In this document: in pieces, positions 39,387 through 55,665 of the stretch
Numbering within the stretch: position 1 is the stretch's first letter
Layout of the letters: every line of letters starts with the position of its first letter
The notes under the pieces: generated by a model
What the model saw: only the letters and a program-made list of their open reading frames with translations
The model's database searches: none
What the model was told of the DNA's origin: nothing
Translations under genes and position numbers: made by a program
DNA from: Castellaniella sp. S9
GTDB lineage: Bacteria > Pseudomonadota > Gammaproteobacteria > Burkholderiales > Burkholderiaceae_B
Reading direction: 5' to 3'
NCBI RefSeq assembly: GCF_027257175.1
Contig: NZ_JAPFGD010000001.1
Location: 186,001-250,000 of the forward strand
DNA length: 64,000 nucleotides

Positions 39387-41005
39387 GCGAACCCTCGCCC
39401 CAGGTGAGCCCGCCGGGCGGCGATGCGGCGGCGCCCGTCGCGCCGGCCCCCGCGCAAGCGCCACGCGAATACCCGCCCCTCGAAGGCAGCGCCCGCACGT
39501 TCGGCACCATCGCCCTGTCGGCCGCAGTGTTCATGAACGTCCTCGATTCCTCGATCGCCAACGTGTCGATCCCGACCATCGCGGGCGACCTGGGGGTGAG
39601 CGCCACGCAGGGCACCTGGGTCATCACCTCGTTTGCGGTGGCCAACGCCATCACCGTGCCGCTGACCGGCTGGCTGACGCAGCGCTTCGGCCAGGTCCGG
39701 CTGTTCGTGCTGTCGGTGCTGCTCTTCGTGCTCAGTTCCTGGCTGTGCGGCTTTGCCTGGTCGCTGGAATCGCTGGTGTTCTTTCGCGTCCTGCAAGGGG
39801 CGGTGGCCGGCCCCATGATCCCGCTGTCGCAATCGCTGATGCTGGCCAGCTATCCCAAGGCCAAGGCCGGGATGGCGCTGGCGATGTGGTCCATGACCAT
39901 CCTGATCGGCCCGATCGCCGGCCCCCTGCTGGGCGGCTGGATTTCGGACAATTATTCCTGGTCGTGGATCTTTTACATCAACGTGCCGGTGGGCCTGCTG
40001 GCCGGCTGGGGAGCCTGGCAGGTCTACAAGGCACGCGACTCGCGCCGCGTGCGCCTGCCCATCGACCGCACCGGCCTGATCCTGCTGGTGGTGTGGGTGG
40101 GGGCGCTGCAACTGCTGCTGGACAAGGGCAAGGAACTGGAATGGTTCGCCAGCCCCTTCATCTGCCTGCTGGCCGTGGTGTCGGTCGTGACCTTCGTGTA
40201 TTTCGTCATCTGGGAACTGACCGCCCGCCACCCCGTCGTCGACCTCACGCTGTTTGCCGGACGCAACTTCACCGCCGGCGTGATCTCGCTGTCGGTAGCC
40301 TACGGCGTGTTCTTCGGCACCGTCGTGCTGCTGCCCCTGTGGCTGCAGAGCACCATGGGCTACACGGCCACCTGGGCGGGCATCGCCTCGGCACCCGTGG
40401 GCATCCTGGCCATCATCCTGTCGCCCATCGTCGGCAAGCTGCTGGCCAAGCACGATCCCCGCCTCATCGCCACCGTGGCCTTCCTGATCTTCGCCCTGAT
40501 CAGCTATATGCGAGCGCAATTCAACACCCAGGTCGACCTGTATGCCGTCATGCTGCCGACCTTCATCCAGGGTGCGGCAATGGCCACGTTCTTCATCCCG
40601 CTGACGACCCTGACCCTGTCCGGATTGAGCGCCGACCGCATCCCGGCGGCCGCCGGCCTGTCGAACTTCGCCCGCCTGGTGTGCGGCGCCTTCGGCACCT
40701 CGATCACCACCACGCTGTGGGACAATCGCGCCACGCTGCACCACAGCCGCATGACCGAGGTGGCGCGGCCGGGCGAACCCGCCTTCGACCAGGTGATGAG
40801 CGGCCTGCACCAACTGGGCCTGAGCAGCCGCCAGGGCGCCGCCTTGATCGACAATGCCATCAGCCAGCAGGCCTACACCATGTCGGCCACCGACATCTTT
40901 TACGCCTCGGCGATACTGTTCCTGGTGCTGATCGGCCTGGTCTGGATGGCCAAGCCCAAATCCGCAGTCCAGAACCTGTCCGGCGGCGGGTCCGGGGCGC
41001 ACTAG
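39383..41005 (+). CDS. emrB: EmrB-type MFS multidrug transporter (DHA2 family)
   Basis: 540 residues with 14 membrane helices. DHA2 motifs are visible: NVLDSSIANVSIPTIAGDLG (motif D1), GWLTQRFGQVRLF (motif A) and GPIAGPLLGGWISDNYSWSW (motif C). It is the proton-driven pump of the operon. The gene ends 38 bases before tRNA-Asn and is the last gene with the typical high-GC host composition before the island. Confidence 0.94.
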   Translation: MSEPSPQVSPPGGDAAAPVAPAPAQAPREYPPLEGSARTFGTIALSAAVFMNVLDSSIANVSIPTIAGDLGVSATQGTWVITSFAVANAITVPLTGWLTQRFGQVRLFVLSVLLFVLSSWLCGFAWSLESLVFFRVLQGAVAGPMIPLSQSLMLASYPKAKAGMALAMWSMTILIGPIAGPLLGGWISDNYSWSWIFYINVPVGLLAGWGAWQVYKARDSRRVRLPIDRTGLILLVVWVGALQLLLDKGKELEWFASPFICLLAVVSVVTFVYFVIWELTARHPVVDLTLFAGRNFTAGVISLSVAYGVFFGTVVLLPLWLQSTMGYTATWAGIASAPVGILAIILSPIVGKLLAKHDPRLIATVAFLIFALISYMRAQFNTQVDLYAVMLPTFIQGAAMATFFIPLTTLTLSGLSADRIPAAAGLSNFARLVCGAFGTSITTTLWDNRATLHHSRMTEVARPGEPAFDQVMSGLHQLGLSSRQGAALIDNAISQQAYTMSATDIFYASAILFLVLIGLVWMAKPKSAVQNLSGGGSGAH

Positions 41006-41018
41006 ACGAAAAAAATTA

Positions 41019-41027
41019 TGCTATAGT
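41019..41027 (+). promoter_or_regulatory. Possible extended -10 box for tRNA-Asn
   Basis: TGCTATAGT fits an extended -10 (TGn-TATAAT type) in an AT-rich stretch 16 bases before the tRNA. No good -35 is visible. Confidence 0.4.
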
Positions 41028-41043
41028 TTCGCTTCTTTGCAGT

Positions 41044-41119
41044 TCCCCGATAGCTCAGTCGGTAGAGCGACGGACTGTTAATCCGCAGGTCCCAGGTTCG
41101 AGCCCTGGTCGGGGAGCCA
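41044..41119 (+). tRNA. tRNA-Asn (GUU)
   Basis: 76 bases including an encoded CCA. The acceptor arms TCCCCGA and TCGGGGA pair, the D-loop region is AGCTCAGTCGGTAGAGC, the anticodon loop is CTGTTAA with anticodon GTT, and the T-loop is GGTTCGAGCC. Its 3' end borders an integrase remnant, so it is the probable attachment site of the island to the right. Confidence 0.96.
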
Positions 41120-41135
41120 AGAAACACTATAAATA

Positions 41136-41345
41136 TCAAGCGCTTAACGCCACCCTTGCCGGTGGCGCTTGTATTTCTGGTTCCGATCTTGACCAAAAAT
41201 TGACCGTGTTGGCGTGGACGGCCACATGACTCGGAGCAAGATGGGCGTACTTCTGCACCATCTCGATTTTCTCCCAACCACCCAGCTCTTTCAGCACCAT
41301 GAGCGGCGTGCCACGCTGGACGTGCCAGCTTACCCAGGCTAGTAC
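41136..41345 (-). pseudogene. Tyrosine recombinase (integrase), C-terminal remnant
   Basis: About 65 residues of a phage-type integrase end: SWHVQRGTPLMVLKELGGW and EMVQKYAHLAPSHVA, including the catalytic Tyr. The upstream HxLRHT/R motif and the rest of the protein are missing; the frame continues into unrelated DNA antisense to a transposase remnant. It sits 16 bases behind tRNA-Asn, where integrases of tRNA-targeting islands usually lie. It cannot be functional. Confidence 0.88.
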
Positions 41346-41397
41346 AACATCCTGTAAATATTTTGAATAATTAGCGGCCCGTACGTACGATGGCTGG

Positions 41398-41534
41398 ATG
41401 AATCGAGGCCGCCCCGTAACGCCAGTGAAGCTGGCAAGAAAGAAAGACAAGAACTGCTGTCGCTGATCGCACGCAAGACCGCCACGCAGCGAGATGTGAT
41501 GCGTGCGCGAATTGCATTGGGGGCTCACGAGGGC
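41398..41534 (+). pseudogene. IS630-family transposase, frameshifted N-terminal remnant
   Basis: Starting at ATG 41398 the frame reads MNRGRPVTPVKLAR; a one-base loss near 41440-41446 then shifts it, and the next frame continues ERQELLSLIARKTATQRDVM and RARIALGAHEG. Together this matches the N-terminus of IS630-type transposases as I remember them. The similarity ends at about 41534. The insertion probably removed most of the adjacent integrase gene. Confidence 0.7.
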
Positions 41535-41587
41535 CGCTCTTGCTTCAACTCAATATTACGTAAGCTATCAGAATCGTTTACCCGAAG

Positions 41588-41603
41588 ATGACAAAAACGT
41601 AAT
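41588..41603. promoter_or_regulatory. Degenerate CopR box before the copper ATPase gene
   Basis: ATGACAAAAACGTAAT fits ATTAC-N6-GTAAT with one mismatch in the left half. It lies about 125 bases before the P-type ATPase start. Three perfect copies occur elsewhere in the island. Confidence 0.5.
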
Positions 41604-41727
41604 TGACGGGTAATCATATTGTCAGATTAGATCAAGCTATGTATGTCATGACGCAACTAAACTGGTTACGTCATGGGGCAATGTCGGCTTCGTGATTCCA
41701 CCGTCCAGTCTTGCAACAGAGGCCATC

Positions 41728-44070
41728 GTGGTAAATACAACAAACTCACCTTCGCAACATAAGCACCACCATGCGGAACCCTCCGCCCAAGCCTTCGGGC
41801 TGACAGATCCCGTATGCGGCATGCACGTCACAAAAGATTCGCCCCATCATCTTGAGCATGCAGGCAGGCATTTCCATTTTTGCAGTACGAAGTGCCTGGA
41901 AAAATTCAAGCACGATCCTGAAAAGTTCATCGCCCCGCAAAGGAAGGACGAAGCCACTTTTCAAGAAGCCGCGCCCGGCACGATCTACACCTGTCCGATG
42001 CATCCGGAAATCCGGCAAGACCATCCCGGAAGCTGTCCGAAATGCGGCATGGCGCTAGAACCACTGATGCCCACCCTGGAAGACGACAACCCAGAGCTGA
42101 AGGATTTTTCGCGGCGCTTCTGGTGGACCTTACCCTTCACGGTCATCGTGACAGTACTGGCCATGTTTGGCCCCCAACTCGGCTGGTTCAGCATGGCCAC
42201 CCAAACATGGATTGAGCTGGTTTTGTCGATCCCGGTCGTACTGTGGGCTGGCCTGCCGTTCTTTACAAGGGGCTGGCAATCGGTCATAAACCGCAGCCCC
42301 AATATGTGGACGCTGATTGGTCTAGGTACAGCCGCAGCCTTCATCTACAGCGTTGTGGCCACGGTGGCGCCAGACGTTTTTCCCGAGACCTTCATGTCCA
42401 TGGGCCGGATCGCCGTCTACTTCGAAGCGGCGGTGGTCATCATCTCGCTCACGCTATTTGGCCAGATGCTCGAACTGCGTGCGCGCTCCCAGACCTCTGC
42501 GGCCATCAAATCGTTGCTGGGACTCGCTCCGAAAACAGCCCGCCGAATCAACGCGGACGGTACGGAAGAAGACATCCCCCTTGCCCATGTCCATGAAGGC
42601 GACCGCTTGCGGGTGCGTCCCGGTGAGAAAGTGCCTGTCGATGGAATGGTGGAAGAAGGCGCCAGTTCCCTGGATGAATCCATGCTCACCGGCGAGCCGC
42701 TGCCGGTCAGCAAACGCCCCGGCGACAAGGTGATCGGTGCGACCATGAATACCTCCGGTGCCCTAGTGATCAGAGCTGAAAAAGTCGGCTCGGCCACCGT
42801 GCTTTCGCAAATTGTTCAGCTCGTCGCTCAGGCGCAGCGCTCTCGTGCACCGATGCAACGCATGGCGGATCTGGTGGCCGGATACTTCGTGATGGCAGTT
42901 GTGGCAATTGCCATTCTTACCCTGATTGTCTGGGGGCTGGTGGGCCCGCAACCCAGCTGGGTGTATGGCTTGATCAACGCCGTCGCCGTGCTCATTATCG
43001 CTTGCCCTTGTGCCCTGGGACTGGCTACGCCCATGTCCATCATGGTGGCCACTGGCCGTGGCGCCACGCAAGGCGTGCTGTTTCGCGACGCGGCGGCCAT
43101 CGAGAACCTCCGCAAGGTCGATACCCTGATCGTCGACAAGACAGGCACCCTGACCGAGGGGCGCCCGGCATTCGAGCAAGCCGTTCCCGCCGGCGACCTG
43201 TCCGCCGACGAAGTGCTGCGCCTGGCGGCAAGCCTGGACCAGGGCAGCGAGCATCCGCTTGCCGACGCGATCGTCAACGCCGCGCGCGAACGCGGGCTGA
43301 GCCTCGGCACCGTTGATGACTTCGAATCCGGCAGCGGCATCGGCGTGCGCGGACAGGTGGACGGCCAACGTCTCGTCCTGGGCAATACGGCACTGATGGA
43401 GCTGGAAAGCGTGGATGTCGGTGCCATGGCCGAGACTGCCGAATCATTACGTGCCAAAGGCGCGAGCGTCATGTATCTGGCGGCCGCCGGCCGGCTGCTG
43501 GGCTTGCTGGCCGTCTCGGATCCGATCAAACAAAGCACACCCGAAGCCGTGCGGGAACTTCAAAACGCCGGGATTCGCGTCATCATGGCCACGGGCGACG
43601 GTGTCGCTACCGCCAAAACCGTAGCCGGGCAACTGGGCATTGATGAAGTGCACGGCGAGGTCAAACCGGCTGACAAGCTGGAGCTGGTCAGCAAGCTTCA
43701 GGCGCAAGGCCGGATTGTTGCCATGGCGGGCGACGGCGTCAATGATGCTCCCGCCCTGGCCAAGGCGGATGTGGGCATTGCCATGGGCACCGGCACTGAC
43801 GTCGCCATGAATAGCGCCCAGGTCACGCTCGTCAAAGGCGACTTGCGCGGTATTTCCATTGCCCGCCACTTGTCCGAAAAAACGATTGGCAATATGAAGC
43901 AGAACCTGGGCTTTGCGTTCATCTATAACGCGCTGGGTGTGCCGCTGGCCGCCGGGGTCCTGTATCCGTTCGTAGGCCTGCTGCTTTCCCCGATGTTCGC
44001 CGCCCTGGCGATGAGTTTGAGTTCGGCATCGGTGGTGTTTAACGCTCTCAGGCTGCGAAAATCGGTATAA
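41728..44070 (+). CDS. copA: Copper-exporting P1B-type ATPase with YHS and heavy-metal-binding domains
   Basis: 780 residues from the GTG at 41728, which follows AGAGG; a GTG at 41692 is a weaker alternative. The His-rich start (HKHHHAE) leads to a YHS domain (TDPVCGMHV) and a Cys-rich domain ([19 protein letters not shown]). Eight membrane helices carry the metal motif CPC (C426), followed by the phosphorylation site DKTGT (D470) and GDGVND (about 667-672). It exports Cu(I), or possibly Ag(I), from the cytoplasm. There is no classical N-terminal HMA domain, as in the SilP/CopF-like branch. Confidence 0.92.
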
Positions 44071-44087
44071 GAGGCCTCCGGTAAGCG

Positions 44088-44504
44088 CTAATCCCTGGAA
44101 AAGGGTCTGCCGGAAAAATCGACGGTAACGAGGTTGCCGTCGAGCATACCCATTCCAGGAGAGTTCAAAGGCATGCCAGGGGCGGAAACGCCCTTGACCG
44201 AGGAATCCGCCAAGAGCTTATGCACGGCGCGGGCAGGCACATGCCCCTCAATGATCTGCCCTGTACTGTCCACGACGCCCGTGTGACACGAACTGAGGTT
44301 CATCGGCACGCCAAGTTTTTGCTTGATCGAAACCATGTCGGTCGTCTTGATGGCCTTTACCTCAAAGCCTGCGTCCCGCATATGCTCGACCCAGCCTGAA
44401 CAGCAGCCACAGTTGGGATCCTGATAGACGGTGATGACGTTTTGACTCGCATGTGCAAAAGTAGAAGCTGCCGCCAAAGCGGCAGCGGTTAGCCAGATTT
44501 TCAT
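44088..44504 (-). CDS. DUF411 metal-binding periplasmic protein
   Basis: 138 residues. Signal peptide (MKIWLTAAALAAASTFAHA) then a DUF411 domain with the Cys motif YQDPNCGCCSGWVEHM, SSCHTG and EGHVPARAV. DUF411 proteins are common in copper and silver resistance clusters and are thought to bind metal. It converges on the ATPase gene and is the last gene of the minus-strand cop group. Confidence 0.87.
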   Translation of the reverse strand: MKIWLTAAALAAASTFAHASQNVITVYQDPNCGCCSGWVEHMRDAGFEVKAIKTTDMVSIKQKLGVPMNLSSCHTGVVDSTGQIIEGHVPARAVHKLLADSSVKGVSAPGMPLNSPGMGMLDGNLVTVDFSGRPFSRD

Positions 44505-44570
44505 AAGCAAAGCTCCGTGATCGAATAGGTTGATTGGATGGTCGCAAGCACCGCAATAGCGGGCACTGCT

Positions 44571-45044
44571 CTAATCGCGCCGTTGCATAGTCACTTCTTT
44601 TTGGGCCTGCAAGACCTTGGGTGGCCAAGTGCTCTTGATATAAGCCAACACTGCAATGATTTCCTCATCAGTCAGCACCGCACCATACGCGGGCATATCG
44701 CTCTGGTAACCCGGTGGTGCCGTCTTGCCTGGAACTAAACCGTTTTTCACCATATCGATCAACATCGCATCGGGATGATGCCAAGTATGGCCTGTCTTAT
44801 CGTGCGGCGGCGCGGGCAACCGGCCATTGGCCATGCGCTCGCGCCAGTTGGGCTGTCCTTGCAGCGACTCGCCATGGCAAGCCGCGCAATTGTTCGCATA
44901 GATCGCCTTGCCTTGAATCACCAGAGACTGATCCGCAGGGTCAATGAATGCCGGGCCTGTTGGCCGCATCGTACTGTAAAGGATGGCGGCCGCGCCGATG
45001 ACGACGACGCCTGCCCCCCAAAAAATCAGCCTTTTCTGGAACAT
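44571..45044 (-). CDS. Membrane-anchored cytochrome c
   Basis: 157 residues. An N-terminal anchor or signal helix (LIFWGAGVVVIGAAAILY) is followed by a single class I cytochrome c domain with haem site CAACH and a distal Met in YQSDMPAYG. It probably sits on the periplasmic face of the inner membrane. It lies 4 bases behind the cupredoxin gene, so both are likely translated from one mRNA. An electron-transfer role with the copper proteins is inferred. Confidence 0.9.
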   Translation of the reverse strand: MFQKRLIFWGAGVVVIGAAAILYSTMRPTGPAFIDPADQSLVIQGKAIYANNCAACHGESLQGQPNWRERMANGRLPAPPHDKTGHTWHHPDAMLIDMVKNGLVPGKTAPPGYQSDMPAYGAVLTDEEIIAVLAYIKSTWPPKVLQAQKEVTMQRRD

Positions 45045-45048
45045 TGGA

Positions 45049-45558
45049 TCAACTGACCTTTACCTTGCCAAGCATCCCGGCCTCCATATGGCCCGGTATC
45101 AGGCAGGCAAAATCCACAGTGCCCGCCTGATCGAACTGCCATACCAGGCCGCCGATTTTGCCGGGGCCCAAGGTGATCATATTCGGCTCGGCATGCTGCA
45201 TCCCCGGCATTTTTTGCATTTCGGCCGCATGGGCCTTCAAATCAGCAATGGATCCGATCACCATCTCATGGGGAATCTTGCCGGTATTTTTGATAAAGAA
45301 ACGAATGGTCTCGCCAGCACTCACCTGGATCTCATCAGGCGTAAACCGCATGGTGTCGTCCATCGTCAGCTCGATGGTTCGGGTCACGTTGGCTGGGTCG
45401 CCCGGTTGGCCTGTTGGCGAAGATGCCTTGGACATCGTAGACATGTCGTGACCAGGCATACCATGCGCCGGTGCGCCATGCCCGCCAGCATGATTGCCCG
45501 CTGCAAGTGCGAAGGCAGGAAGTATGCTCAAAGCCAGAATAGAAAGGGTTTTTTTCAT
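45049..45558 (-). CDS. His/Met-rich periplasmic cupredoxin (CopI-like)
   Basis: 169 residues. Signal peptide, then a His/Gly/Met-rich stretch (NHAGGHGAPAHGMPGHDMS), then a cupredoxin domain with type 1 copper ligands: His in GKIPHEMVIG and the C-terminal cluster FACLIPGHMEAGM. It resembles the copper-induced protein CopI. It binds copper in the periplasm. It lies between copB and the cytochrome gene. Confidence 0.86.
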   Translation of the reverse strand: MKKTLSILALSILPAFALAAGNHAGGHGAPAHGMPGHDMSTMSKASSPTGQPGDPANVTRTIELTMDDTMRFTPDEIQVSAGETIRFFIKNTGKIPHEMVIGSIADLKAHAAEMQKMPGMQHAEPNMITLGPGKIGGLVWQFDQAGTVDFACLIPGHMEAGMLGKVKVS

Positions 45559-45634
45559 GTGAATTGTCTATTGAAGAGATTGTTTTGGCAGGCAGCCGTT
45601 TTAAGCCGCTCATGTGAAAAGGTATCAGGCGGCA

Positions 45635-46840
45635 TCAAAATCGAAAGCTCAAGCCGGCCACAAAACGGGTTTCCTGCTTGGAGTCGCCTGCTGCTCGCGC
45701 ATAATCCGCTGTTTTCCCGAATTTGCTGGACCATTCAACGCCAATGTACGGGACAAACTGACGCGTGACTTCATACTTAAGACGCAAGCCCGCCGTGCCG
45801 TCTGTCAAGCCGCTGCCAATGCCCCAACGCTCATCGTCCCTGCCATAAAAATTCATTTCAACGCTCGGTTGAAGGTAGAGCTTTTGAGTCAGCAAGATGT
45901 CGTATTCCGCCTTTAGCCCCAGAGCAGTGCGGCCGCTCGGACCAACATAAGCGGTAGCATCGATTTCAAACCAGTAAGGTGCCAGTCCTTTGAAGCCGAA
46001 TGCCAACCATTCCCGGTTTGGCGCTCCTTGACCATGATCGAAACGCACACCCAGCTCTGTGTCCCAGAATGTTGACACCGCATGACGCCACAGTAATTGC
46101 GTCTTGGACTCTTGCAGCTTGCCGCTCGCCACTTCGCCCTCGGCTTTGATCACGGCACGGTTATAGGTGCTGCCATACCAAGCCTCACCTTCATAGGCAG
46201 CCCATTCTTCGCCTCGTGCCCTGACGTACTCCAGACGGTCGAAATACACGGAGCCGAAGTTGTGCATGTCGGACATGATCAACTTTTCTGAGGGTGGCAA
46301 CGCATACTTGCCCGCATTGCGCACGTAACCATCGGAATACGCATCCGGGTCACGGGCATCCGGCGGTGCCGAACCGCCTTGCATCTGCATATCACCGTGG
46401 TCCATGGCGTCCATATTGTGGACGGAGGCTGGCGCACTGGAGCTCGGCTGGCCGTGCGTCATCCCCGACATGGCGGAAGAACCTTTGCTCGTTTCAGCCC
46501 GTTTCATCGGCGCCGTCATGGCGTCATGGCCTTGTGCTGGAGCTTGCTCTGCACCATGATTCATACCGGACGTGACCATCGAACCGTGATTCATGCCCGA
46601 CATATCCATCAAACCATGATCCATGCCGGGCATGTTCATGGAGCCGTGATTCATGCCTGGCGCCATCGCCGGTGCGCTTGCCTTGGAAGGTTCCGGCGCG
46701 TGGCCGGCATGGCCCCCATCCGCCTGTGCGTAGGCAAGCATGGGCGTCATCCCCGCTGTAATGATGGTCGCCGCAAGAAACTTCTTCTTCAATTGACTAT
46801 TCATAACCAGAATGCCTAACGGATTGTTCATATTCTTCAT
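45635..46840 (-). CDS. copB: CopB, outer-membrane copper resistance protein
   Basis: 401 residues. Signal peptide followed by a Met/His-rich repeat region (about 40-130; repeated GMNHGSM and GMDHGLM units) and a C-terminal beta-barrel domain (from about 190; SDMHNFGSVYFDRLEYV) ending in Phe (AGLSFRF), as expected for an outer-membrane protein. The ATG at 46840 overlaps the copA stop by 4 bases. It works with the multicopper oxidase CopA in periplasmic copper tolerance. Confidence 0.93.
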   Translation of the reverse strand: MKNMNNPLGILVMNSQLKKKFLAATIITAGMTPMLAYAQADGGHAGHAPEPSKASAPAMAPGMNHGSMNMPGMDHGLMDMSGMNHGSMVTSGMNHGAEQAPAQGHDAMTAPMKRAETSKGSSAMSGMTHGQPSSSAPASVHNMDAMDHGDMQMQGGSAPPDARDPDAYSDGYVRNAGKYALPPSEKLIMSDMHNFGSVYFDRLEYVRARGEEWAAYEGEAWYGSTYNRAVIKAEGEVASGKLQESKTQLLWRHAVSTFWDTELGVRFDHGQGAPNREWLAFGFKGLAPYWFEIDATAYVGPSGRTALGLKAEYDILLTQKLYLQPSVEMNFYGRDDERWGIGSGLTDGTAGLRLKYEVTRQFVPYIGVEWSSKFGKTADYARAAGDSKQETRFVAGLSFRF

Positions 46841-48714
46841 GCGACCACCACTTCGCGGAACATCCCCGCGTCCATGTGCAACATCAGATGGCAATGCCAT
46901 GCCCAGCGCCCAAGGGCATCCGCCGTCACCAAAAAGCTGATCCGCTGAGCCGGCTGCACCGGAATCGTGTGCCGCCTGGCCTGGAACTGTCCGTCCGGCG
47001 TCTCCAGTTCACTCCACATACCGTGCAAGTGCATGGGGTGCGTCATCATGGTGTCGTTGTGCAATATGACTCTGACCCGTTCGCCATAGCTGAAATGAAT
47101 CGGCGTCGATTTTCCGTACTCCACCCCGTCGAATGACCAGGCGTAGCGCTCCATATTTCCAGTCAGGTGCAGCTCAATTTCACGCTCTGCGCCGCGCGAA
47201 TCCATTGGCCCGCCCACGGTATGCAGATCGGACAATGTCAATACGCGTCGGCCACTACTGCGCAGGCCGATGCCTGGGTCGTCCAAGTTGGTGCGCGGCA
47301 TGTCTACCCGCATATCGATGCTCGGCCCGTATTCCGTTCTGGCATGGCGCACCTGGGCGCTGGCGCCGGCCGCCGGCATGGTGCCGTGCTTCATGCCGGC
47401 CATGCCTGCATGATTCATTCCCTGCATGCCCTGCATCCCGCCATGGGTCATCGCAGCCATATTGCCGTGGTTCATTGCGGCCATGCCGCCGTGGTTCATG
47501 CCACCCATCGAAGGCTGGCCAGCCGCACCATGGCTCATGCCCGCCATGCCGCCAGCTCCCATGGCACCCATCATGTCCGCCATGGTCAGCCATTCAACGG
47601 GGTCAAGGCCTGGTACGGGTGCTTCCAGGCCTGCGCGGGCGGCCAACGTCCCGCGGGCGTAGCCTGTACGGTCCATGGCTTGCGCAAAAACCGTGTAGGC
47701 ATCATCTTTCGGTTGCACCAGCACATCGTAGGTTTCCCCCGGACCGAACCGGAACTCATCGACAGTAACCGGCTCGACATTGACGCCATCGGCTTGGACC
47801 ACAGTCAATTGAAGACCGGGAATACGCACATCGTAGAAGGTGTTGGCGGCTCCATTGATGAAACGCAACCGCACACGCTCTCCTGGCTGAAACAGACCCG
47901 TCCAGTTGCCCGCAGGCGTCGTGCCGTTCATTAGATAGGTCAACACATTGGCAGACAGGTCGGCCAAATCCGTTGGGCTCATGCGCATCTCATTCCACAT
48001 CTTGCGCTTGTCGATGGCGGCCTTTAGGCCCATCTGCGAGGCGTCTCGGAAGAAATCCACGGCGGTGGGCTGGCTGTAGTTGTAGTAGTCGCCTTGCATC
48101 TTGAGCTTGGCCAACACCCGCATGGGATCCTCGTCGGTCCAGTCAGATAGCTGAACCACGTACTCACGATCGGTCCGTATGGGTTCTCCGTCCACAGGAT
48201 CGATAATGATCGCCCCATAGACTCCGGTGGCCTCCTGCATGCCCGAGTGGGAGTGGTACCAGTAGGTGCCACTTTGTTGCACTTTGAACCGATACGTGAA
48301 GGTTTCGCCCGGCGGGATTCCCGCAAAGCTGATCCCTGGCACGCCGTCCATCTGATACGGCAGGATAATGCCGTGCCAATGGATGGAGGTGGCTTCCTTC
48401 AGACGATTTTTCACCCGGATAGTGACCGTATCGCCTTCGCGCCAACGCAAGGTGGGCGCAGGTAGCGAACCATTCACGGTCGTGGCGATTCTTGGATTAC
48501 CGGTAAAGTTGACGGGCGACTCGCCAATTTCTAAATTAAATTCGGTGCCGACCAGTATCTGGGCGGAACCTGTACTAGTGCGAGTTGACTGCGCACCAAC
48601 GGCACGGGCATAAGGCGACAGGCCAAGCAGTACACCGCCCGCTGCCAACCCTTGAACAAAGCGGCGGCGAGGCATGAACGGTACGGGAACAGCTAGCGTA
48701 GGCAGACGTTTCAC
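46837..48714 (-). CDS. copA: CopA-type multicopper oxidase
   Basis: About 625 residues, exported by Tat (MPRRRFVQGLAAGG). Copper ligands lie in HWHG, WYHSHSG, HPMHLHG and HCHLMLHMDAGM. Between the second and third cupredoxin domains is a Met/His-rich segment of about 80 residues built from GGMNHGGM-like units. It oxidises or sequesters periplasmic Cu(I). I chose the GTG at 48714, which has AGGA upstream; other starts are 48783 and 48675. A perfect CopR-type palindrome lies about 115 bases upstream. The symbol follows the Pseudomonas cop nomenclature and is distinct from the ATPase. Confidence 0.93.
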   Translation of the reverse strand: MKRLPTLAVPVPFMPRRRFVQGLAAGGVLLGLSPYARAVGAQSTRTSTGSAQILVGTEFNLEIGESPVNFTGNPRIATTVNGSLPAPTLRWREGDTVTIRVKNRLKEATSIHWHGIILPYQMDGVPGISFAGIPPGETFTYRFKVQQSGTYWYHSHSGMQEATGVYGAIIIDPVDGEPIRTDREYVVQLSDWTDEDPMRVLAKLKMQGDYYNYSQPTAVDFFRDASQMGLKAAIDKRKMWNEMRMSPTDLADLSANVLTYLMNGTTPAGNWTGLFQPGERVRLRFINGAANTFYDVRIPGLQLTVVQADGVNVEPVTVDEFRFGPGETYDVLVQPKDDAYTVFAQAMDRTGYARGTLAARAGLEAPVPGLDPVEWLTMADMMGAMGAGGMAGMSHGAAGQPSMGGMNHGGMAAMNHGNMAAMTHGGMQGMQGMNHAGMAGMKHGTMPAAGASAQVRHARTEYGPSIDMRVDMPRTNLDDPGIGLRSSGRRVLTLSDLHTVGGPMDSRGAEREIELHLTGNMERYAWSFDGVEYGKSTPIHFSYGERVRVILHNDTMMTHPMHLHGMWSELETPDGQFQARRHTIPVQPAQRISFLVTADALGRWAWHCHLMLHMDAGMFREVVVA

Positions 48715-48828
48715 GCGTGAGAATCCTGTGGATTGATTTTTTGTTGAAATTTGCCTGTCGAAGATTAAAACGACAGACACCATTACTTAACTTTAAGCAA
48801 GTACGGCTGTCAGGCTAATGACAGGCTG

Positions 48829-48844
48829 ATTACTTTTTTGTAAT
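48829..48844. promoter_or_regulatory. CopR box in front of copAB
   Basis: ATTACTTTTTTGTAAT, a perfect dyad that extends to TGATTAC-N6-GTAATCA (48827-48846). It fits the cop-box pattern ATTAC-N6-GTAAT. Confidence 0.75.
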
Positions 48845-48929
48845 CAATGGATCAGCCCTATCCCAAGTCAAAGAAGAACGAGCCAAAACCTCACTTTCAT
48901 TCCTACCTTCATACCGCACAAACATAGCT

Positions 48930-49511
48930 TCATCTTTGGACATACGAGGCCAGTTGTTGCTTTTCTTGGATGGGATCTACTGGCCGATTATTGACGCGCA
49001 GTTCATAATGCAAATGAGGACCACTGGATACTCCGGTTGAACCAACATACCCAATGATTTGTCCTTTTTCTATCCTGACCCCTTTTCTTAGACCATTCTT
49101 AAAACGACTTTGATGCGCATAGACCGTGGAATAACCATAGTTATGCTCGACGAAGATCACTTTTCCATATCCGCTTTGCGTTCCAATAAAGGAGATCTTC
49201 CCCCGAGCAGTTGCACGGATAGGCGTACCTTTAGGGGCTGGAAAATCAAGACCTTGATGGCCAGCCCACTCGCCCGATAAGGGATGAAGTCGGTAGCCAA
49301 AACCTGAATTGATACGCAGGTGTTCGATAAGTGGCGTATCAAGAAACATCTTTTGCAAGCTCTCAAGTCGAGGAGTTTGGTTATGAGAGTGTTTACCCAA
49401 TATGTAAACAGGGCCTTCAGCGATGGATGTCTGCCTAACTTCCGATGCCATAACGGCATTCGTCACAAGGTAACCAAAAATGAGAAGCAAGCTTTTTAGT
49501 TTAGGATGCAT
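48930..49511 (-). CDS. M23 (LytM) family peptidase
   Basis: 193 residues. Signal sequence, then a LytM peptidase domain with zinc ligands in HQGLDFPAPKG and HLHYELR, plus the GYGKVIFVEHNYGYSTVYAH segment. It cleaves or binds peptidoglycan cross-links in the periplasm. It is AT-richer than its neighbours and seems a recent addition. It follows dsbD on the same strand after 132 bases. Why a wall peptidase sits in a copper cluster is unclear. Confidence 0.88.
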   Translation of the reverse strand: MHPKLKSLLLIFGYLVTNAVMASEVRQTSIAEGPVYILGKHSHNQTPRLESLQKMFLDTPLIEHLRINSGFGYRLHPLSGEWAGHQGLDFPAPKGTPIRATARGKISFIGTQSGYGKVIFVEHNYGYSTVYAHQSRFKNGLRKGVRIEKGQIIGYVGSTGVSSGPHLHYELRVNNRPVDPIQEKQQLASYVQR

Positions 49512-49643
49512 GTCATATAGAAAATAACTGAATTGCAAGAGTGTGACTCACCTTTTGTAGCTCGGAGCAGGCGTGAATCATGCCGGGGTTGTCAAATGAC
49601 GGTTCCATTGCTTATCACTTTTCCGCCATCGAAAGAACAGAAA

Positions 49644-51614
49644 TCAAAGTGGAATCGCCGCCCTCAAAGAATTTAGAAATTTTCTTGAGGATTGGAACCC
49701 AACAACTTGAAAGTTGATTTCTTTTCCTTGTCGATCGAAAAAGATAATTCCGGGCGGGCCGAACAGCCCAAAACGCTTAAGCAATGCCTGGTCGTCCGCA
49801 TTGTTCGCAGTCACGTCCGCCTTAAGCAAAACGACATCCTTGAGACGATTTCTCACCTGAATATCCGTAAACGTGAAGCGCTCCATTTCTTTGCACGATA
49901 TGCACCAGTCAGCCCAGAAGTCGAGCATGACATAACGCCCCGAAGCTGCCTTTACCTGCGAATCCAGATCAGCCAGACTCGTGATTTTCTTAAACTGGAG
50001 CTCGGGCGAACTATTCGTCTGTGCGACTGCAACGCTACCCGTCCGTAAGCCTGCTAACGGCTGCAATACATCGCTGCCCCCTGATAACACCCCGACGAGC
50101 AGGGCGAGGCCAGAAACTAAAGCAATGAATCCTACCCCTTTGCCAAATCTCGCAAATCCGGGCGAATCATCAGGCAGCGGCTCCAACGTCTTCAGGTACA
50201 TCGCGCTTATGATGAGCAAAGCGGCCCATAAGCTCATATGGACAACGGAAGGTATGACTGGCGAAATCATGTAGATGGCAACAGCAAGCATCGTGACGCC
50301 AAAAAAGTGCTGCACGGATTTCATCCACCGACCAGCCTTAGGTAAAAGCGCACCCGCTGTCGTGCCAAAGATCAGAAGCGGAACCCCCATTCCTATAGCT
50401 AGCGAGAACAGCGCAACGCCGCCCAACACGACATCCCCGGTCTGCCCAATGTAAAGCAGCGCACCGGCTAACGGCGCCGCAACGCAAGGCCCGACGATGA
50501 TGGCGGACAATACGCCCATCACAAATACACTTAGAATTTTTCCACCTGCAGATTGGTTTGCTGCGCTTGTCAGACGACTTTGAATGGAAGTTGGTATCTG
50601 GAGCTGATAAAAGCCGAACATTGACAGGGCGAGCAGCACGAAGATGGCGGCGAAGGCTCCCAACACCCATGGATTTTGCAGATAGGCCGCGAGCATCGTG
50701 CCTGCCAGCCCCGCAGCCACACCTGCAATCGCATAGGTGACGGCCATCGACAGCACGTAGACCGAGGAAAGACCGAAGGCACGGCGGCGGCTCATGGAAC
50801 GCCCTTGTCCAATAATCATTCCCGACAGGATCGGTATCATGGGCAGCATGCAGGGAGTAAACGCTAATACCAGCCCAAAGCCAAAGAATGCAGCAATGAG
50901 AGCCCACGCATTATCTTGGGCGAACAGTTCTCCTACAAGGCTTGTCTCCGATACAGGAGCCTTGATGGCACTCTGCTGAATGCTGTTGCTCGTCCCACTT
51001 TGCGCTGACGCAACAACAATGGGGCTATCTGGAGCGGCAGGGAGTTGGCTGTTGTCCACGAGCGCCACAGACAGTGTTTTCTCTATCGGGGGGTAGCAAA
51101 CGCCAGTCGGATCGTTACAGCCCTGATAAGAAGCTCGTAGATCCAGCGTGTTGACTGCCGACCCACTGCTTCTATTCAACGTAATTGGAATCTGGACGGA
51201 TCCGTAATAGACCTCGACCTGCCCGAAAGTGGGGTCGTCCTTGACCTGCCCGGGAAGTAGCGCAACGCCCTTGATCGAGACGTCCGGCGACGAGTCTCGC
51301 AGATCGAAGATAATTCGATCCCTATAAAGATAGTAGCCCTCGGCTGCTACCAACGTGACGACCAGCGTATTGGGACTGCTTGCGCTTGCGAACGATTTGA
51401 ACGCTTCGTCCGGCGGCAACAACTCCTGGTCGGAATCCTCGCCACCAAACCAGCCTCGTAGCGAATCGAAGACGCTTCTGGCTGAAGGGGTAGGCGCCGA
51501 TGCCACGATACTCGTGGAACCCGCCGACATTTCAAAGGACTGTGCGGCACCAACGCCAGGCAACCATGCCAGTGCCAGCACTAGCATGGCTAATAAAGAA
51601 CGGATCGATGTCAC
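49644..51614 (-). CDS. dsbD: DsbD, thiol:disulfide interchange protein
   Basis: 656 residues. Signal peptide, N-terminal DsbD-alpha domain with the Cys pair (CNDPTGVCYPP), eight membrane helices (AFTPCMLPMIPILSG; VGPCVAAPLAGAL), and a C-terminal thioredoxin-like domain with WCISCKEM. It carries electrons from cytoplasmic thioredoxin to periplasmic substrates. In copper clusters such proteins may keep copper-sensitive thiols reduced. It lies 12 bases behind the DUF2933 gene and is probably in its operon. Confidence 0.92.
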   Translation of the reverse strand: MTSIRSLLAMLVLALAWLPGVGAAQSFEMSAGSTSIVASAPTPSARSVFDSLRGWFGGEDSDQELLPPDEAFKSFASASSPNTLVVTLVAAEGYYLYRDRIIFDLRDSSPDVSIKGVALLPGQVKDDPTFGQVEVYYGSVQIPITLNRSSGSAVNTLDLRASYQGCNDPTGVCYPPIEKTLSVALVDNSQLPAAPDSPIVVASAQSGTSNSIQQSAIKAPVSETSLVGELFAQDNAWALIAAFFGFGLVLAFTPCMLPMIPILSGMIIGQGRSMSRRRAFGLSSVYVLSMAVTYAIAGVAAGLAGTMLAAYLQNPWVLGAFAAIFVLLALSMFGFYQLQIPTSIQSRLTSAANQSAGGKILSVFVMGVLSAIIVGPCVAAPLAGALLYIGQTGDVVLGGVALFSLAIGMGVPLLIFGTTAGALLPKAGRWMKSVQHFFGVTMLAVAIYMISPVIPSVVHMSLWAALLIISAMYLKTLEPLPDDSPGFARFGKGVGFIALVSGLALLVGVLSGGSDVLQPLAGLRTGSVAVAQTNSSPELQFKKITSLADLDSQVKAASGRYVMLDFWADWCISCKEMERFTFTDIQVRNRLKDVVLLKADVTANNADDQALLKRFGLFGPPGIIFFDRQGKEINFQVVGFQSSRKFLNSLRAAIPL

Positions 51615-51626
51615 TTCAACTACTCA

Positions 51627-51878
51627 TCATCCGGAATGTTTGGTCGATTCAGGAACCGGTGCCGGCGCGGGTTCGTTTTTCTTTCCGCTATGCTCGGAAT
51701 GGCATGATTGCATTCCCTTCATCATGAAGAGCATCATCAACGGACAGATCAGGAAGAATAAAAAGGGGCTTACGGCAGCAATCCACTCACGCGCAGTCGG
51801 TAACGCCGCGTAAGCCAACGCAACCAGCACAGCCAACCCTAGGCCACCTTTCAACATAGTCTTCATATCGCATTTCAT
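51627..51878 (-). CDS. DUF2933 small membrane protein
   Basis: 83 residues with two membrane helices (KGGLGLAVLVALAYAALP; SPFLFFLICPLMMLFMM) and a Cys/His/Met tail (GMQSCHSEHSGKK). It matches the DUF2933 family frequently found in metal-resistance islands; the function is unknown. It is the first gene before dsbD. A near-perfect CopR box (51981-51996) lies about 100 bases upstream. Confidence 0.8.
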   Translation of the reverse strand: MKCDMKTMLKGGLGLAVLVALAYAALPTAREWIAAVSPFLFFLICPLMMLFMMKGMQSCHSEHSGKKNEPAPAPVPESTKHSG

Positions 51879-52318
51879 TTCTCGAAACTCCTGTTGCCTG
51901 AATGCTCGCCAGAGCTAATTTACATATCCAACGATGACACCACTATAGCGATCCATACCTGTCAGGCGGATTGCTTCGACATTACATCTTTGTCATCTTC
52001 ATATTGCACTCCTGAGCTTCTTGAAATTCCATTGAAACTCCAGGCAATGCAGCACCTTGCATACATTGCAGGGGCATGTATTACAAATATGTAATCTCAG
52101 GGTAATAGTTACGTCAGAAGCGAAACCATATAGTTTCGACTATCGGCCCTGTTGTGAAGAACTCCGACCCGTCGGTCGAAGTTTCTTCGCTACGATGCAA
52201 GGGCATCGCCGGTGTCGCATTGATATTGCTTCGCTTGATCTCGTCCGAAAGGTAAGACTTTCGCTCTGGTACTTGGTCAGCAAGCAGGTTCTCTTTTCCT
52301 GTCTATGTTGGAGGCATC
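51879..52318. promoter_or_regulatory. Divergent control region of DUF2933-dsbD and the beta-propeller gene
   Basis: About 440 bases without a convincing gene. It holds two CopR-type palindromes: ATTACATCTTTGTCAT (51981-51996, one mismatch, nearer to dsbD) and ATTACAAATATGTAAT (52080-52095, perfect, nearer to the plus-strand gene). The second box leaves a leader of about 220 bases before the propeller gene, for which I see no further structure. Confidence 0.7.
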
Positions 52319-53353
52319 ATGCTCAAACTTCGTCCCATTCTTCTGGCTGTCACCCTCGCTTTTTCCGCCAGCATGGTCCACGCTTCATCCCTTCCTAACG
52401 GAGTCGTGTATAGCGCTAATGAAGGAGACGGATCCATTAGCAAAATCACGCTAAGCACAGGTGATGTAAAAACGACTCAGATTAGCGTCATACCCCACAA
52501 TGTGCAGATTGCTCCTGACGGAAAAACATTGCTCGCTGTCGGCACAGCAAAAACGGAAGGAGGTGGGCATGGTAATGGGCATGGTGTCAGCATCGACAGC
52601 CATGGGGATGCCGGCCTGCTGATCCTGGATGTAGATCAACTTGATAAAACGCTGAAAACGCTGCCTTCAGGCGACCATCCTGCTCATGTCGTCACCAGCC
52701 CGGATGGCCGCTACGCCTATATCACGAATGCGGATGCAAACCAATTGTCCGTCGTGGACACCCAAGCAGGGAAACTTACCGCTGAAATTGCCACCGGCGC
52801 TTATCCTCACGGCCTGCGGTTAAGCCCGGATGGACGCGAACTTTACGTCGCGAATGTCAGCGATAACTCTGTGTCCGTCATTGATCCTAAAACCCTCAAG
52901 GAAACAGCCAGAATTGCTGTTGGACGAGCGCCCGTGCAAGTGGCATTCACAAAGGACGGCAAGCAGGTGTATGTCTCATTGCGAGATGAGAACAGCGTCG
53001 CAGTCATCGATATTGCTACAAGAAAAGCCATCAACCAGATAAATGTCGGCCGTGGCCCAATCCAGCTGTATGCCGGCGCCGGCGATACGATGTTTGTGGC
53101 CAACCAGGGAAGCGACACTAAGCCGGATAATACGATATCGGTCATCGACACCCAAAACCAAAGCGTGATCGGGACGGTGGTGACGGGCAAAGGCGCCCAT
53201 GGGGTAGTCGCGAGCGGAGACGGAAAATATGTCTTCGTCACCAACACCCTTGACAATAGCGTGAGCGCGATCGATGTCGGCACCAAAAAAGTGGTTGCCA
53301 CCTACCAGGTCGGACCCAATCCCAACGGGATCACATATCGTAGCCTCCCTTAA
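52319..53353 (+). CDS. YncE-like periplasmic beta-propeller protein
   Basis: 344 residues. Signal peptide (LRPILLAVTLAFSASMVHAS) followed by about seven YVTN-type propeller repeats (DGRYAYITNADANQLSVVD; DGRELYVANVSDNSVSVID; DGKYVFVTNTLDNSVSAID). A Gly/His insert, TEGGGHGNGHGVS, lies between early blades and could bind metal. The function is unknown. A perfect CopR-type box in its upstream region suggests copper control. Confidence 0.85.
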   Translation: MLKLRPILLAVTLAFSASMVHASSLPNGVVYSANEGDGSISKITLSTGDVKTTQISVIPHNVQIAPDGKTLLAVGTAKTEGGGHGNGHGVSIDSHGDAGLLILDVDQLDKTLKTLPSGDHPAHVVTSPDGRYAYITNADANQLSVVDTQAGKLTAEIATGAYPHGLRLSPDGRELYVANVSDNSVSVIDPKTLKETARIAVGRAPVQVAFTKDGKQVYVSLRDENSVAVIDIATRKAINQINVGRGPIQLYAGAGDTMFVANQGSDTKPDNTISVIDTQNQSVIGTVVTGKGAHGVVASGDGKYVFVTNTLDNSVSAIDVGTKKVVATYQVGPNPNGITYRSLP

Positions 53354-53480
53354 CCGGGGGAGGGTATGCGAGCAAGCTTATCGCGCAGCCAATGCGGATT
53401 GCAAACCGACCTCCGTTCTACAAAAAGGCAAATATTGCGATTGCGAAATGGTGGATCCATTTCATCAGAACGGCATGGGC

Positions 53481-53496
53481 ATTACATAAATGTAAT
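53481..53496. promoter_or_regulatory. CopR box in front of copRS
   Basis: ATTACATAAATGTAAT, part of the perfect dyad GCATTACA-TAAA-TGTAATGC (53479-53498), about 75 bases before copR. It suggests autoregulation. Confidence 0.78.
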
Positions 53497-53571
53497 GCTT
53501 ATGTCATGTCCACGACAGTACGGTAGGATTACAGTCATCCACGTAATGTTGATGAAGGGAGGTGTCCAGCC

Positions 53572-54255
53572 ATGAAGCTGCTCGTGGTCGAAGACGAGGT
53601 CAAAACAGGAGACTATGTCCGTCAAGGCTTGACAGAAGCCGGATTTATTGTGGATCTGGCCCGTACCGGCCTTGATGGACACCACTTGGCGCTTACGGGT
53701 GCGTACGATCTGATCATTCTGGATGTCATGTTGCCAGATGTGGACGGCTGGCGAATCGTACAGGCGCTTCGGGATGCGAAGTCCTCTACGCCCGTGCTCT
53801 TTCTGACGGCGAAAGACAGCGTGGAAGATCGCGTAAAAGGGCTGGAGCTTGGCGCTGATGACTACTTGGTCAAGCCATTCGCTTTTTCGGAACTGCTGGC
53901 GCGCGTACGTACCTTGCTGCGTCGCGGCACCGCTTCCGCTTTTCAAGACAAGCTGCAGGTCGCTGATCTCGTCCTTGATATCCCACGCCGTCGTGCCGAG
54001 CGCCAGGAGAGACGCATCACCCTTACCAACAAAGAGTTCGCACTGCTGGAGCTTATGGTTCGTCGTCAGGGTGAGGTATTGCCTCGGTCGCTCATTGCGT
54101 CCCAGGTATGGGATATGAATTTTGACAGCGATACGAATGTCATTGATGTCGCAATAAGACGCCTGCGCGCAAAAATCGACGACGACTTCGAGCCCAAGCT
54201 TATCCATACGGTACGCGGCATGGGCTACATGCTGGATGTCACTCTCCCGGGCTGA
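53572..54255 (+). CDS. copR: CopR-type OmpR-family response regulator
   Basis: 227 residues. Receiver domain with [11 protein letters not shown], the phospho-acceptor Asp in [15 protein letters not shown], and [13 protein letters not shown]. The C-terminal winged helix has [20 protein letters not shown] and [14 protein letters not shown]. It follows the heavy-metal response regulator pattern (CopR/CusR/CzcR). It overlaps no gene but lies 3 bases before copS. It probably binds the ATTAC-N6-GTAAT palindromes of this island. Confidence 0.93.
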
Positions 54256-54258
54256 CAG

Positions 54259-55665
54259 ATGGCTCGACGCCCCGCTTCCTTGGCAGTACGGCTCACCGTC
54301 TCAATAGGGGCTGTGATTACATTCGTGCTCCTCACCTTCGGCTGGATGATTGAGCGGTCCATTAATGAGCATTTCATCCAGCAGGATGTCGATGAACTCA
54401 ATGCCGTTGTTCAAGTTCTACAGCATACCTTAGCCACACTACCTCAAAATGCCACGCCTGAAGACCTGAAAGAACGGTTTGCTACCGCAGTATCCGGGCA
54501 CCACAACGCGCAATATTACATTTCCTCTGGAACCGGTGTGCAGATTTATGCCTCACCTGGGTCAGATCTAGGTCGTTTCGCGAAAATTTCCCGACCCGTC
54601 CAGAAGATTTCCATCGAAACTGTCGGGACATGGCAAGATCATGGGGAAACATTCCGAGGAGCCGTTCTACATACCACGTCAGACAGCACTGCTGGAGAGA
54701 AAATATTCACTATCGCAGTTGCAACGGGCATCAACTTCCATTTGCACTATCTGGAGAGCTTTCGCACCTATCTTCGCCTCATAACGACCGTTGCCTGCCT
54801 GATTGCAATTCTGGCCACTTGGCTGGCTGTCCATCAAGGACATGCCCCCATTCGGCGAATCAGCCGAGAAATACGAAACATCAAATCCGATCAATTGCAT
54901 ATCCGGCTGGAACCTCACACAGTGCCGGCAGAACTAGTGGAACTGTCCATTTCATTCAATGAGATGATCGAACGACTGGAGGATGTATTTCAGCGTTTAT
55001 CTGGCTTTTCTGCGGACATTGCGCATGAATTACGGACGCCGATCACAAATCTGAAGACACAGACTGAAGTCGCTCTTTCTCAGTCACGCAGCATCGAGCA
55101 ATATCGCGAGGTTCTGTACTCCAACCTCGAAGAGTACGAACGTATGGCAAAAATGGTTGGCGACATGCTATTTTTAGCGCAAGCAGACAACAATTTGCTC
55201 AAGCCCGAACTCGTCAAGATTGACTTGGAGGCCGAAATGCGCAATCTCTTCGATTACTTTGGCGCATGGGCTGAAGAGCGTGAGGTGGACCTGAAACTCT
55301 CCGGCGAACAGATATACGTGCAAGGGGATAGGCTGATGATTCGCCGAGCGCTGAGCAACGTGTTATCCAATGCTATTCGCTATACACCGGCAGGACACAC
55401 CATCAACGTGATCCTGGAGTCGAGCGAGAAAGTCGCGACGATACGCGTCAAGAATCCGGGCCCCGTCATTCCTGCGGAACACCTTGACCGAATTTTCGAA
55501 AGGTTTTACCGGATGGATGCTTCACGTCAACGCAGCATAGAAGGAGCGGGTCTGGGGCTGGCGATAGCCAAATCTATTGTGGAGGCCCATGGCGGCAAGA
55601 TCCAGGCAAGCTCCACCTCTGAAGCCACGGAATTCAAAATCAGTCTGCCAGCGGTCGGCTGTTGA
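54259..55665 (+). CDS. copS: CopS-type heavy-metal sensor histidine kinase
   Basis: 468 residues. Two membrane helices (about 13-36 and 170-192) flank a periplasmic sensor domain. HAMP follows, then HisKA with the phospho-His in SADIAHELRTPITNLK, and a HATPase domain with NVLSNAIRYTP and GAGLGLAIAKSIVEAHGG. It matches the CusS/CopS/IrlB heavy-metal kinase family. It forms one operon with copR and should sense periplasmic copper. Confidence 0.93.
   Translation: MARRPASLAVRLTVSIGAVITFVLLTFGWMIERSINEHFIQQDVDELNAVVQVLQHTLATLPQNATPEDLKERFATAVSGHHNAQYYISSGTGVQIYASPGSDLGRFAKISRPVQKISIETVGTWQDHGETFRGAVLHTTSDSTAGEKIFTIAVATGINFHLHYLESFRTYLRLITTVACLIAILATWLAVHQGHAPIRRISREIRNIKSDQLHIRLEPHTVPAELVELSISFNEMIERLEDVFQRLSGFSADIAHELRTPITNLKTQTEVALSQSRSIEQYREVLYSNLEEYERMAKMVGDMLFLAQADNNLLKPELVKIDLEAEMRNLFDYFGAWAEEREVDLKLSGEQIYVQGDRLMIRRALSNVLSNAIRYTPAGHTINVILESSEKVATIRVKNPGPVIPAEHLDRIFERFYRMDASRQRSIEGAGLGLAIAKSIVEAHGGKIQASSTSEATEFKISLPAVGC

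Follow-up and report, generated by a model that had tools for sequence, protein, structure and literature searches.

The 64,000-nucleotide stretch of Castellaniella sp. S9 analyzed here (contig NZ_JAPFGD010000001.1, positions 186,001 to 250,000; hereafter, the window) contains a copper-resistance island. Five transcription units of this island, which encode a copper-type P-type ATPase, CopA and CopB, a DUF2933 protein with DsbD, a YVTN-type β-propeller protein, and the two-component system CopRS, are each preceded by the same directional sequence element. We predict that this element is the operator of the response regulator CopR. The predicted operators and the genes that they precede are listed below; operator scores were obtained with a matrix trained on a second island on contig C12, and gene assignments with the family models named.

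41588..41625, + strand: predicted CopR-type operator of the P-type ATPase gene, ATGAC-N6-GTAAT-N6-GTAAT-N6-GTCAG, weak -10 TATGTA at 41638-41643, 34.8 bits
41692..44070, + strand: copper-type heavy-metal P-type ATPase (YHS, HMBD, E1-E2 ATPase), TIGR01511, 585.5 bits, cut-off 397
45635..46900, - strand: copB, PF05275, 280.5 bits
46837..48783, - strand: copA, copper-resistance multicopper oxidase, TIGR01480, 971.7 bits, over the cut-off of 478.95
48807..48844, - strand: predicted CopR-type operator of copAB, ATTAC-N6-GTAAT-N6-GTCAT-N6-GACAG, -10 TAAAGT at 48790-48795, 37.4 bits
49644..51614, - strand: dsbD, thiol:disulfide interchange protein, NF001419, 577.3 bits, cut-off 330
51627..51878, - strand: DUF2933 protein, PF11666, 51.4 bits
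51959..51996, - strand: predicted CopR-type operator of DUF2933-dsbD, ATGAC-N6-GTAAT-N6-GCAAT-N6-GACAG, -10 TATAGT at 51942-51947, 31.5 bits
52080..52117, + strand: predicted CopR-type operator of the β-propeller gene, conserved in relatives, ATTAC-N6-GTAAT-N6-GTAAT-N6-GTCAG, -10 TATAGT at 52129-52134, 36.5 bits
52319..53353, + strand: YVTN/YncE-like β-propeller protein, TIGR02276, 188.1 bits, cut-off 27.85; PF21783, 87 bits
53481..53518, + strand: predicted CopR-type operator of copRS (autoregulation), ATTAC-N6-GTAAT-N6-GTCAT-N6-GACAG, -10 TACAGT at 53530-53535, 37.4 bits
53572..54255, + strand: copR, OmpR-family heavy-metal response regulator, TIGR01387 (cztR_silR_copR), 349.1 bits, over the cut-off of 279.2
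54259..55665, + strand: copS, CusS-type sensor kinase, PF21085, 187.6 bits

A preliminary description of this DNA had proposed a palindrome, ATTAC-N6-GTAAT, as the element shared by the five promoters. Its coordinates are all correct: three copies are exact (48829-48844, 52080-52095 and 53481-53496), and two carry one mismatch (41588-41603 and 51981-51996). However, although the five sites are real, the palindrome is incomplete as the shared element; the unit is a directional array of four half-sites at a nearly fixed distance from the -10 hexamer. Read toward the gene, the sites conform to ATKAC-N6-GTAAT-N6-GTMAT-N6-GWCAG, with an 11-bp step throughout. The lone departure among the window sites is upstream of DUF2933-dsbD, where GCAAT replaces GTMAT; GCAAT is also present at the paralogous dsbD operator on C12. 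Both imperfect palindromes owe their mismatch to a T-to-G change in the half-site distal to the gene. The two downstream repeats are found at all five sites, one of which carries one mismatch. Across 127,968 window positions, GTMAT-N6-GWCAG with at most one mismatch has only 15 occurrences, five of which are these sites, and thus its in-register presence at 5/5 sites is not due to chance.

With up to two mismatches, the window contains 11 copies of the palindrome, versus 4.59 expected, and one of 100 shuffled sequences reaches 11 copies; the relaxed motif alone is therefore enriched only moderately. In the complete genome (3.81 Mb, 33 contigs), nine exact copies are found, versus none for a reversed control, and all are located in two regions, the window island (C1:234-240 kb) and C12:142-190 kb. 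The motif is thus not common at random positions, a possibility raised in the preliminary description, and its exact copies are confined to two copper islands. Allowing one mismatch yields 31 palindromes genome-wide and 12 reversed controls. The extended pattern with up to three mismatches gives 16 matches (15 distinct palindromes, one of which is read both ways), all inside the two copper islands, and its reversed control gives none. Counted another way, the extension (up to three mismatches) accompanies 15 of 17 one-mismatch palindromes in the islands and 0 of 14 outside them. The directional pattern thereby separated island palindromes from others in this genome, so CopR regulons should be readable from sequence.

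Several other palindromes are set apart from these sites. A sixth copy in the window, with one mismatch, at 46082..46097 on the + strand, was absent from the list in the preliminary description. It lies within the copB reading frame, lacks the extension, and was rejected as a decoy that probably arose by chance. A two-mismatch copy at 48782, which overlaps the copA -10 region, was likewise rejected. Elsewhere in the genome, a core-only ATGACAAAAATGTAAT palindrome (L073:1749-1764; C2:18248) has a good core without the extension and lies ~300 bp upstream of a gene that reads as MntP-like. Another one-mismatch palindrome (G000:C22:145469) is ~52 bp before the gene for a response regulator of 35% identity, and might be that regulator's own box.

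The register of the array is also apparent from an offset scan that started from the core sites alone. Among 25 oriented readings of 16 distinct palindromes in this genome (perfect palindromes being read both ways), GTMAT peaks at +22 (8/25; +11 is the core itself), GWCAG at +33 (10/25), and a TAWAGT -10 hexamer at +49 (6/25), with counts of 0-3 at the remaining offsets. The same three offsets account for 25, 27 and 16 of 74 readings in relatives, after removal of rows with identical sequence (82 reduced to 74), and no other offset exceeds 5. When a matrix built from nine C12 sites only is scanned over all 64 kb, the top five scores, 31.5-37.4 bits, fall on the five window sites. These are followed by the reverse readings of the copR palindrome (24.9 bits) and of the copA palindrome (16.7 bits), and the best score in five shuffled windows is 15.7 bits. 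Conversely, a matrix made from the five window sites scores all nine C12 training sites at 22.2-36.8 bits.

The spacing from the array to a -10-like hexamer is 11 nt in four of the five promoters and 12 nt for the ATPase gene. At the usual 16-18 nt, the best -35 candidates mismatch at 3-5 of 6 bases. Counted from the -10, and hence with presumptive transcription starts, the core spans ~-60 to -45 and the two repeats extend down to ~-24. Because the -10 is only 11-12 nt away and no good -35 is present, the array appears to sit where a class II activator would be placed, i.e., in a type II position next to the -10.

The genome encodes two close CopR proteins, one per island, that share 90% identity over 224 residues, and no other regulator exceeds 42%. 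The copR product of the window scores 368.1 bits against the CusR/SilR equivalog NF007346, under its cut-off of 420, and is therefore termed CopR-type rather than CusR. In an alignment, the C-terminal recognition region of CopR is nearly identical in CusR, SilR and PcoR of E. coli, in CopR of plasmid pMOL30, and in a Methylophaga CopR. Relatives of the CusR/SilR/PcoR type have been reported to bind such inverted repeats, according to the portions consulted of two studies (PMC7380067, PMC12428095).

We then related the array (up to two mismatches) to CopR in 200 family genomes drawn evenly from a larger group; the resulting counts are not adjusted for relatedness. Genomes with a close CopR (E <= 1e-109, or roughly at least 78% identity) carry the array in 58 of 59 cases and contribute 276 of the 311 matches; the array is also present in 21 of 58 genomes whose CopR relative is more distant, and in 8 of 83 genomes with none. 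The association of the array with close CopR versus the rest has a Fisher P value of 3.8e-27 without correction for relatedness, and a reversed array control gives two matches in all 200 genomes. Among the matches listed, a same-strand array lies 54-105 nt upstream of 32 of 37 close copR genes, all taken from genomes whose arrays are listed in full. By coordinates, two of the five misses (in G103 and on C12 of G033) have an array 927 nt upstream. Locus L040 is arranged likewise, with a methyltransferase gene between the array and copR.

Conservation is also evident at the propeller gene. We retrieved 29 named loci that encode a propeller relative, the nearest being from Castellaniella denitrificans (96%); several are near-duplicates, and counts of loci are thus not independent. 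Of the surveyed genomes, G004 has exactly the operators of the C. denitrificans locus L029, and G002 and G005 have those of the C. caeni locus L034; these three belong to the same genus as the present genome, which is thereby placed in Castellaniella with probability. A matrix that excludes both the propeller's own site and a former propeller operator at C12:142718 finds an operator within 450 bp upstream of the propeller in 12/29 loci, at 28.0-37.5 bits, whereas the top score among 200 shuffles at any locus is 16.8 bits. The same 12 loci pass when the C12:142718 site is kept in the matrix, and they include Nitrosomonas eutropha and two Halopseudomonas. In two more loci (L040 and L042), the propeller follows DUF2933 in one unit with the operator at its head. 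No operator was found at the other 15 propeller loci, namely L043 and 14 loci whose propellers are at most 58% identical; the stretches examined at these 14 contain no array of at least 20 bits anywhere. Over all 29 loci, 53 matches reach at least 20 bits, including three reverse readings; they are confined to 15 loci, and one shuffled copy of each locus gives none. DUF2933 is preceded by the operator in seven of the eight loci where it was found.

The leader between operator and propeller (52118-52318 in the window) is ~200 nt long here and in C. denitrificans; L037 has 157 nt, and the remaining loci with the operator directly ahead of the propeller have 64-127 nt. An Rfam search over 40500-57500 gave only a tRNA at gathering score and, thus, no RNA element in the long leader. 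The propeller scores 75.6 bits against the YncE equivalog NF052280, under its cut-off of 400, and is therefore a YVTN-repeat protein rather than YncE itself. In the literature searched, which was judged by titles and the openings of abstracts, nothing was found on the propeller as a CopR target. The preliminary description had also proposed that CopR controls the whole set, including dsbD and the propeller. The rarity of the sites, the relatives of the regulator, and the recurrence of the operators in other genera all support this proposal at the level of sequence. DsbD, DUF2933 and the little-studied propeller would thereby be tied to the periplasmic copper response.

By gene reading, C12:142-190 kb is a paralogous copper island with its own copRS, copA, copB, ATPase, dsbD and cupredoxin genes. 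Seven of its ten sites precede a fitting gene or unit (DUF2933-dsbD, cupredoxin, ATPase, copA, DUF2933 with an F510_1955 propeller, copRS, and a broken propeller). At the last of these (C12:142718-143200; L010:6719-7200), an intact operator is followed by only the last codons of the propeller gene. Approximately 1.1 kb is missing relative to L037, and the operator now stands ahead of a methyltransferase gene. Probably, the second propeller copy was lost by an internal deletion that spared its promoter. A distinct propeller-like protein of the F510_1955 family, with Sortilin/BNR repeats, is encoded after a DUF2933 paralogue at C12:183875-185306 (L012:9875-11306). Both genes stand behind the array operator at C12:185269, and C. 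caeni (L034) has an array 109 nt ahead of an F510_1955 propeller-like gene. A weaker array-like site of 16.4 bits, followed by TTAAAGT, occurs at C12:175517 (L012:1517) and is a possible further copper promoter of this island. The CopR of the second island, at 90% identity, very likely recognizes these sites as well, and cross-regulation between the islands is therefore expected; cross-talk between two duplicated CopRS systems is thus predicted within one cell.

Three additional genes of the window island may belong to the units described above, and the island's edge carries a tRNA gene and an integrase-like fragment:

41044-41528: tRNA-Asn and, immediately after it, a fragment bearing the C-terminal portion of a phage integrase domain (PF00589, 22.8 bits, under its cut-off of 27.1), - strand
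44088..44510, - strand: DUF411-like protein, read from its translation; NCBIfam gave only a sub-threshold DsbC match
44571..45044, - strand: cytochrome c-like protein, read from its translation without a family search, after a 590 nt gap downstream of copB
48930..49538, - strand: M23 metallopeptidase, by family search

The cytochrome c-like gene is possibly a downstream member of the copAB unit, with the DUF411-like gene possibly at its end, and the M23 metallopeptidase gene probably belongs to the DUF2933-dsbD unit. The DUF411 name is provisional and follows gene neighborhoods. The annotation of the pMOL30 copper cluster includes a cytochrome c, and a peptidoglycan metalloendopeptidase is present in the E. 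coli sil/pco island as well. The first-ATG start of copA (48783) falls about where transcription should begin (region 48675-48844); the true start is probably downstream, for example at the Met preceding PRRRFVQG near 48675.

The island begins just past the tRNA-Asn and the integrase-like remnant, which likely mark the edge of a tRNA-targeted genomic island. Its G+C content is 51-60%, compared with 64-71% in most of the remaining window. This lower G+C content and the position of the tRNA and the remnant are as expected of an acquired element. No second exact copy of the tRNA 3' end (at least 14 bases) was found in the window. For other Castellaniella, the available part of one report describes an island that displaced nos (PMC11046850), and no NosZ above the model's cut-off was found in the present genome. 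However, the tRNA adjoining the island is tRNA-Asn, not tRNA-Arg, so the two events are not shown to be the same, and this identification was not adopted.

As a whole, these observations are best explained if the five sites are operators of CopR that make up one regulon, a reading that we hold with high confidence as a prediction from sequence. The complete island, propeller included, would then probably be switched on together by copper. To judge from its family, CopS would sense periplasmic copper and phosphorylate CopR. CopR would bind the inverted pair ATKAC-N6-GTAAT ~45-60 bp upstream of the transcription start, and further subunits would fill the in-phase direct repeats GTMAT and GWCAG, whose layout is evident and whose occupancy is presumed, to reach 11-12 nt before the -10. 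Since none of these promoters has a good -35, CopR bound at the array would probably take the role of this element and recruit σ70 RNA polymerase by class II activation. The regulon would comprise the ATPase gene, copAB (perhaps with the cytochrome c and DUF411 genes), DUF2933-dsbD (perhaps with the M23 peptidase gene), the propeller gene and copRS.

Several observations weigh against a CopR regulon built on the four-part array. Of the 83 surveyed genomes without a CopR match, eight carry a single array each, and the array is missing from G198 despite its close CopR. No clear copper gene lies close downstream of three C12 sites out of ten (152710, 160587 and 190040), and the -10 of the ATPase promoter is poor (three of six bases off consensus). 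The reciprocal matrix test is not fully independent, since the C12 sites were found with the window palindrome and some promoters are paralogous. The fourth half-site, GWCAG, is unlike GTAAT and could represent either a weaker half-site or a point of contact for polymerase. Moreover, a good core beside pcoA on an E. coli plasmid has no array, and the copA-copR region of pMOL30 has no array match, so the strict form of the array is not universal. Finally, the related regulator AgrR gives footprints of ~24-35 nt that would cover the core and one or two further repeats but not clearly all four half-sites, in the data seen from PMC7380067.

In a rival arrangement, a CopR dimer would bind the 16-bp palindrome alone, and GTMAT-N6-GWCAG would be a promoter element, such as a -35 variant, rather than two further half-sites. 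The classical CusR/CopR/PcoR box is indeed described as an inverted repeat in the portions consulted of PMC7380067 and PMC12428095, CTGACAG resembles TTGACA, and the pcoA core does without the array. However, the TGACAG-like hexamer is only ~11-12 nt before the -10, not 16-18, and the -35 candidates at that spacing are poor, as noted above. The downstream repeats also hold the same 11-bp step as the core, and a changed promoter-proximal direct repeat largely affected activation by AgrR, in the part of PMC7380067 consulted. We thus regard this arrangement as unlikely, albeit the most serious competitor of a four-part operator. It is much less probable that another OmpR-family regulator, e.g., of the CzcR type, is the main binder and that CopR merely shares its half-site. 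Half-sites are indeed shared, as the P. aeruginosa sites given in the accessible text of PMC11195947 illustrate (GAAACn6GTAAT for CzcR, CTGACAn5GTAAT for CopR), and arrays extend to genomes with only distant CopR relatives. Nevertheless, the only close CopR-family regulators of this genome are the two island copies, and across the family the array tracks close CopR and precedes copR in most of the listed cases. Promoter copying between genes, or the AT-richness of the island, could in principle make the sites alike without selection by a regulator, given the island's lower G+C content and the paralogy of some sites between islands. We give this explanation very little credence: in a per-column table, the half-sites hold constant but the N6 spacers separating half-sites 2, 3 and 4 differ from promoter to promoter, shuffles of the same composition give no such scores, and the layout recurs in E. 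coli and Halopseudomonas.

Operators of the kind that we assign to CopR have a precedent in the AgrR boxes of C. metallidurans NA4. According to the portions consulted of PMC7380067, footprints mapped AgrR to ATKACANNNNTGTMAT, some operators also carry in-phase direct repeats, and both elements contribute to activation; changes to the inverted repeat nearly abolished it, and the boxes were placed as type II. Three of the five window sites match this inverted repeat in full, and those at 48829 and 41588 have one inner-base mismatch. Compared with the AgrR box, the array here is stricter and longer, with two downstream repeats at the 15 of 17 island palindromes counted above and a fourth half-site, GWCAG, separated from the -10 by 11-12 nt at the five promoters of the window. 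In addition, the regulator is the CopR of a copper island, not AgrR.

The same four-half-site layout, with a similar -10 distance, is found at cusC of E. coli K-12, at plasmid-borne silC and silE, and at a site just past pcoS; the recognition regions of CusR, SilR and PcoR are nearly identical to that of CopR. The half-sites are ATGAC/GTCAT in E. coli versus ATTAC/GTAAT here, with GTCAY as the third and ATCAG or AACAG as the fourth. The relaxed pattern (up to three mismatches) gives 10 matches in four reference stretches, eight of them with 0-1 mismatch, and two matches in all among three shuffled copies per stretch. In C. metallidurans pMOL30, only one array-like site passed (near silD, one mismatch). 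The pho box bound by PhoB also consists of direct repeats with 11-bp steps, located beside the -10 in place of a -35. In contrast to that box, the CopR array is headed by an inverted half-site and has a different consensus.

In P. putida, CopR1 and CopR2 both bind all four cop promoters, and the protected regions contain several TGACA-like half-sites; the part of the report consulted describes no fixed array or -10 spacing and proposes other -10/-35 boxes (PMC12428095). The parts consulted of four further papers (PMC7763554, PMC10141476, PMC10304878, PMC8478169) contain no competing operator model.

These comparisons raise a broader view, which we consider evenly balanced between right and wrong: that the classical cop/cus palindrome is half of an operator, that many CopR/CusR/SilR/PcoR promoters carry a mixed head-to-head and head-to-tail array in place of the -35, and that the YVTN propeller is a core periplasmic copper-response protein. 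If this is true, the functional unit is one inverted half-site followed by three direct ones, which run in 11-bp steps and stop 11-12 nt short of a -10 without a -35, and the propeller has its own such operator in β- and γ-proteobacteria. The kind of operator was already known from the AgrR boxes, as type II boxes with inverted and in-phase direct repeats, and the Castellaniella sites are a well-resolved member of it. To this, the present analysis adds the strictness and length of the array, its ability to tell island sites from palindromes elsewhere, and the recurrence of the propeller and DUF2933(-dsbD) as targets.

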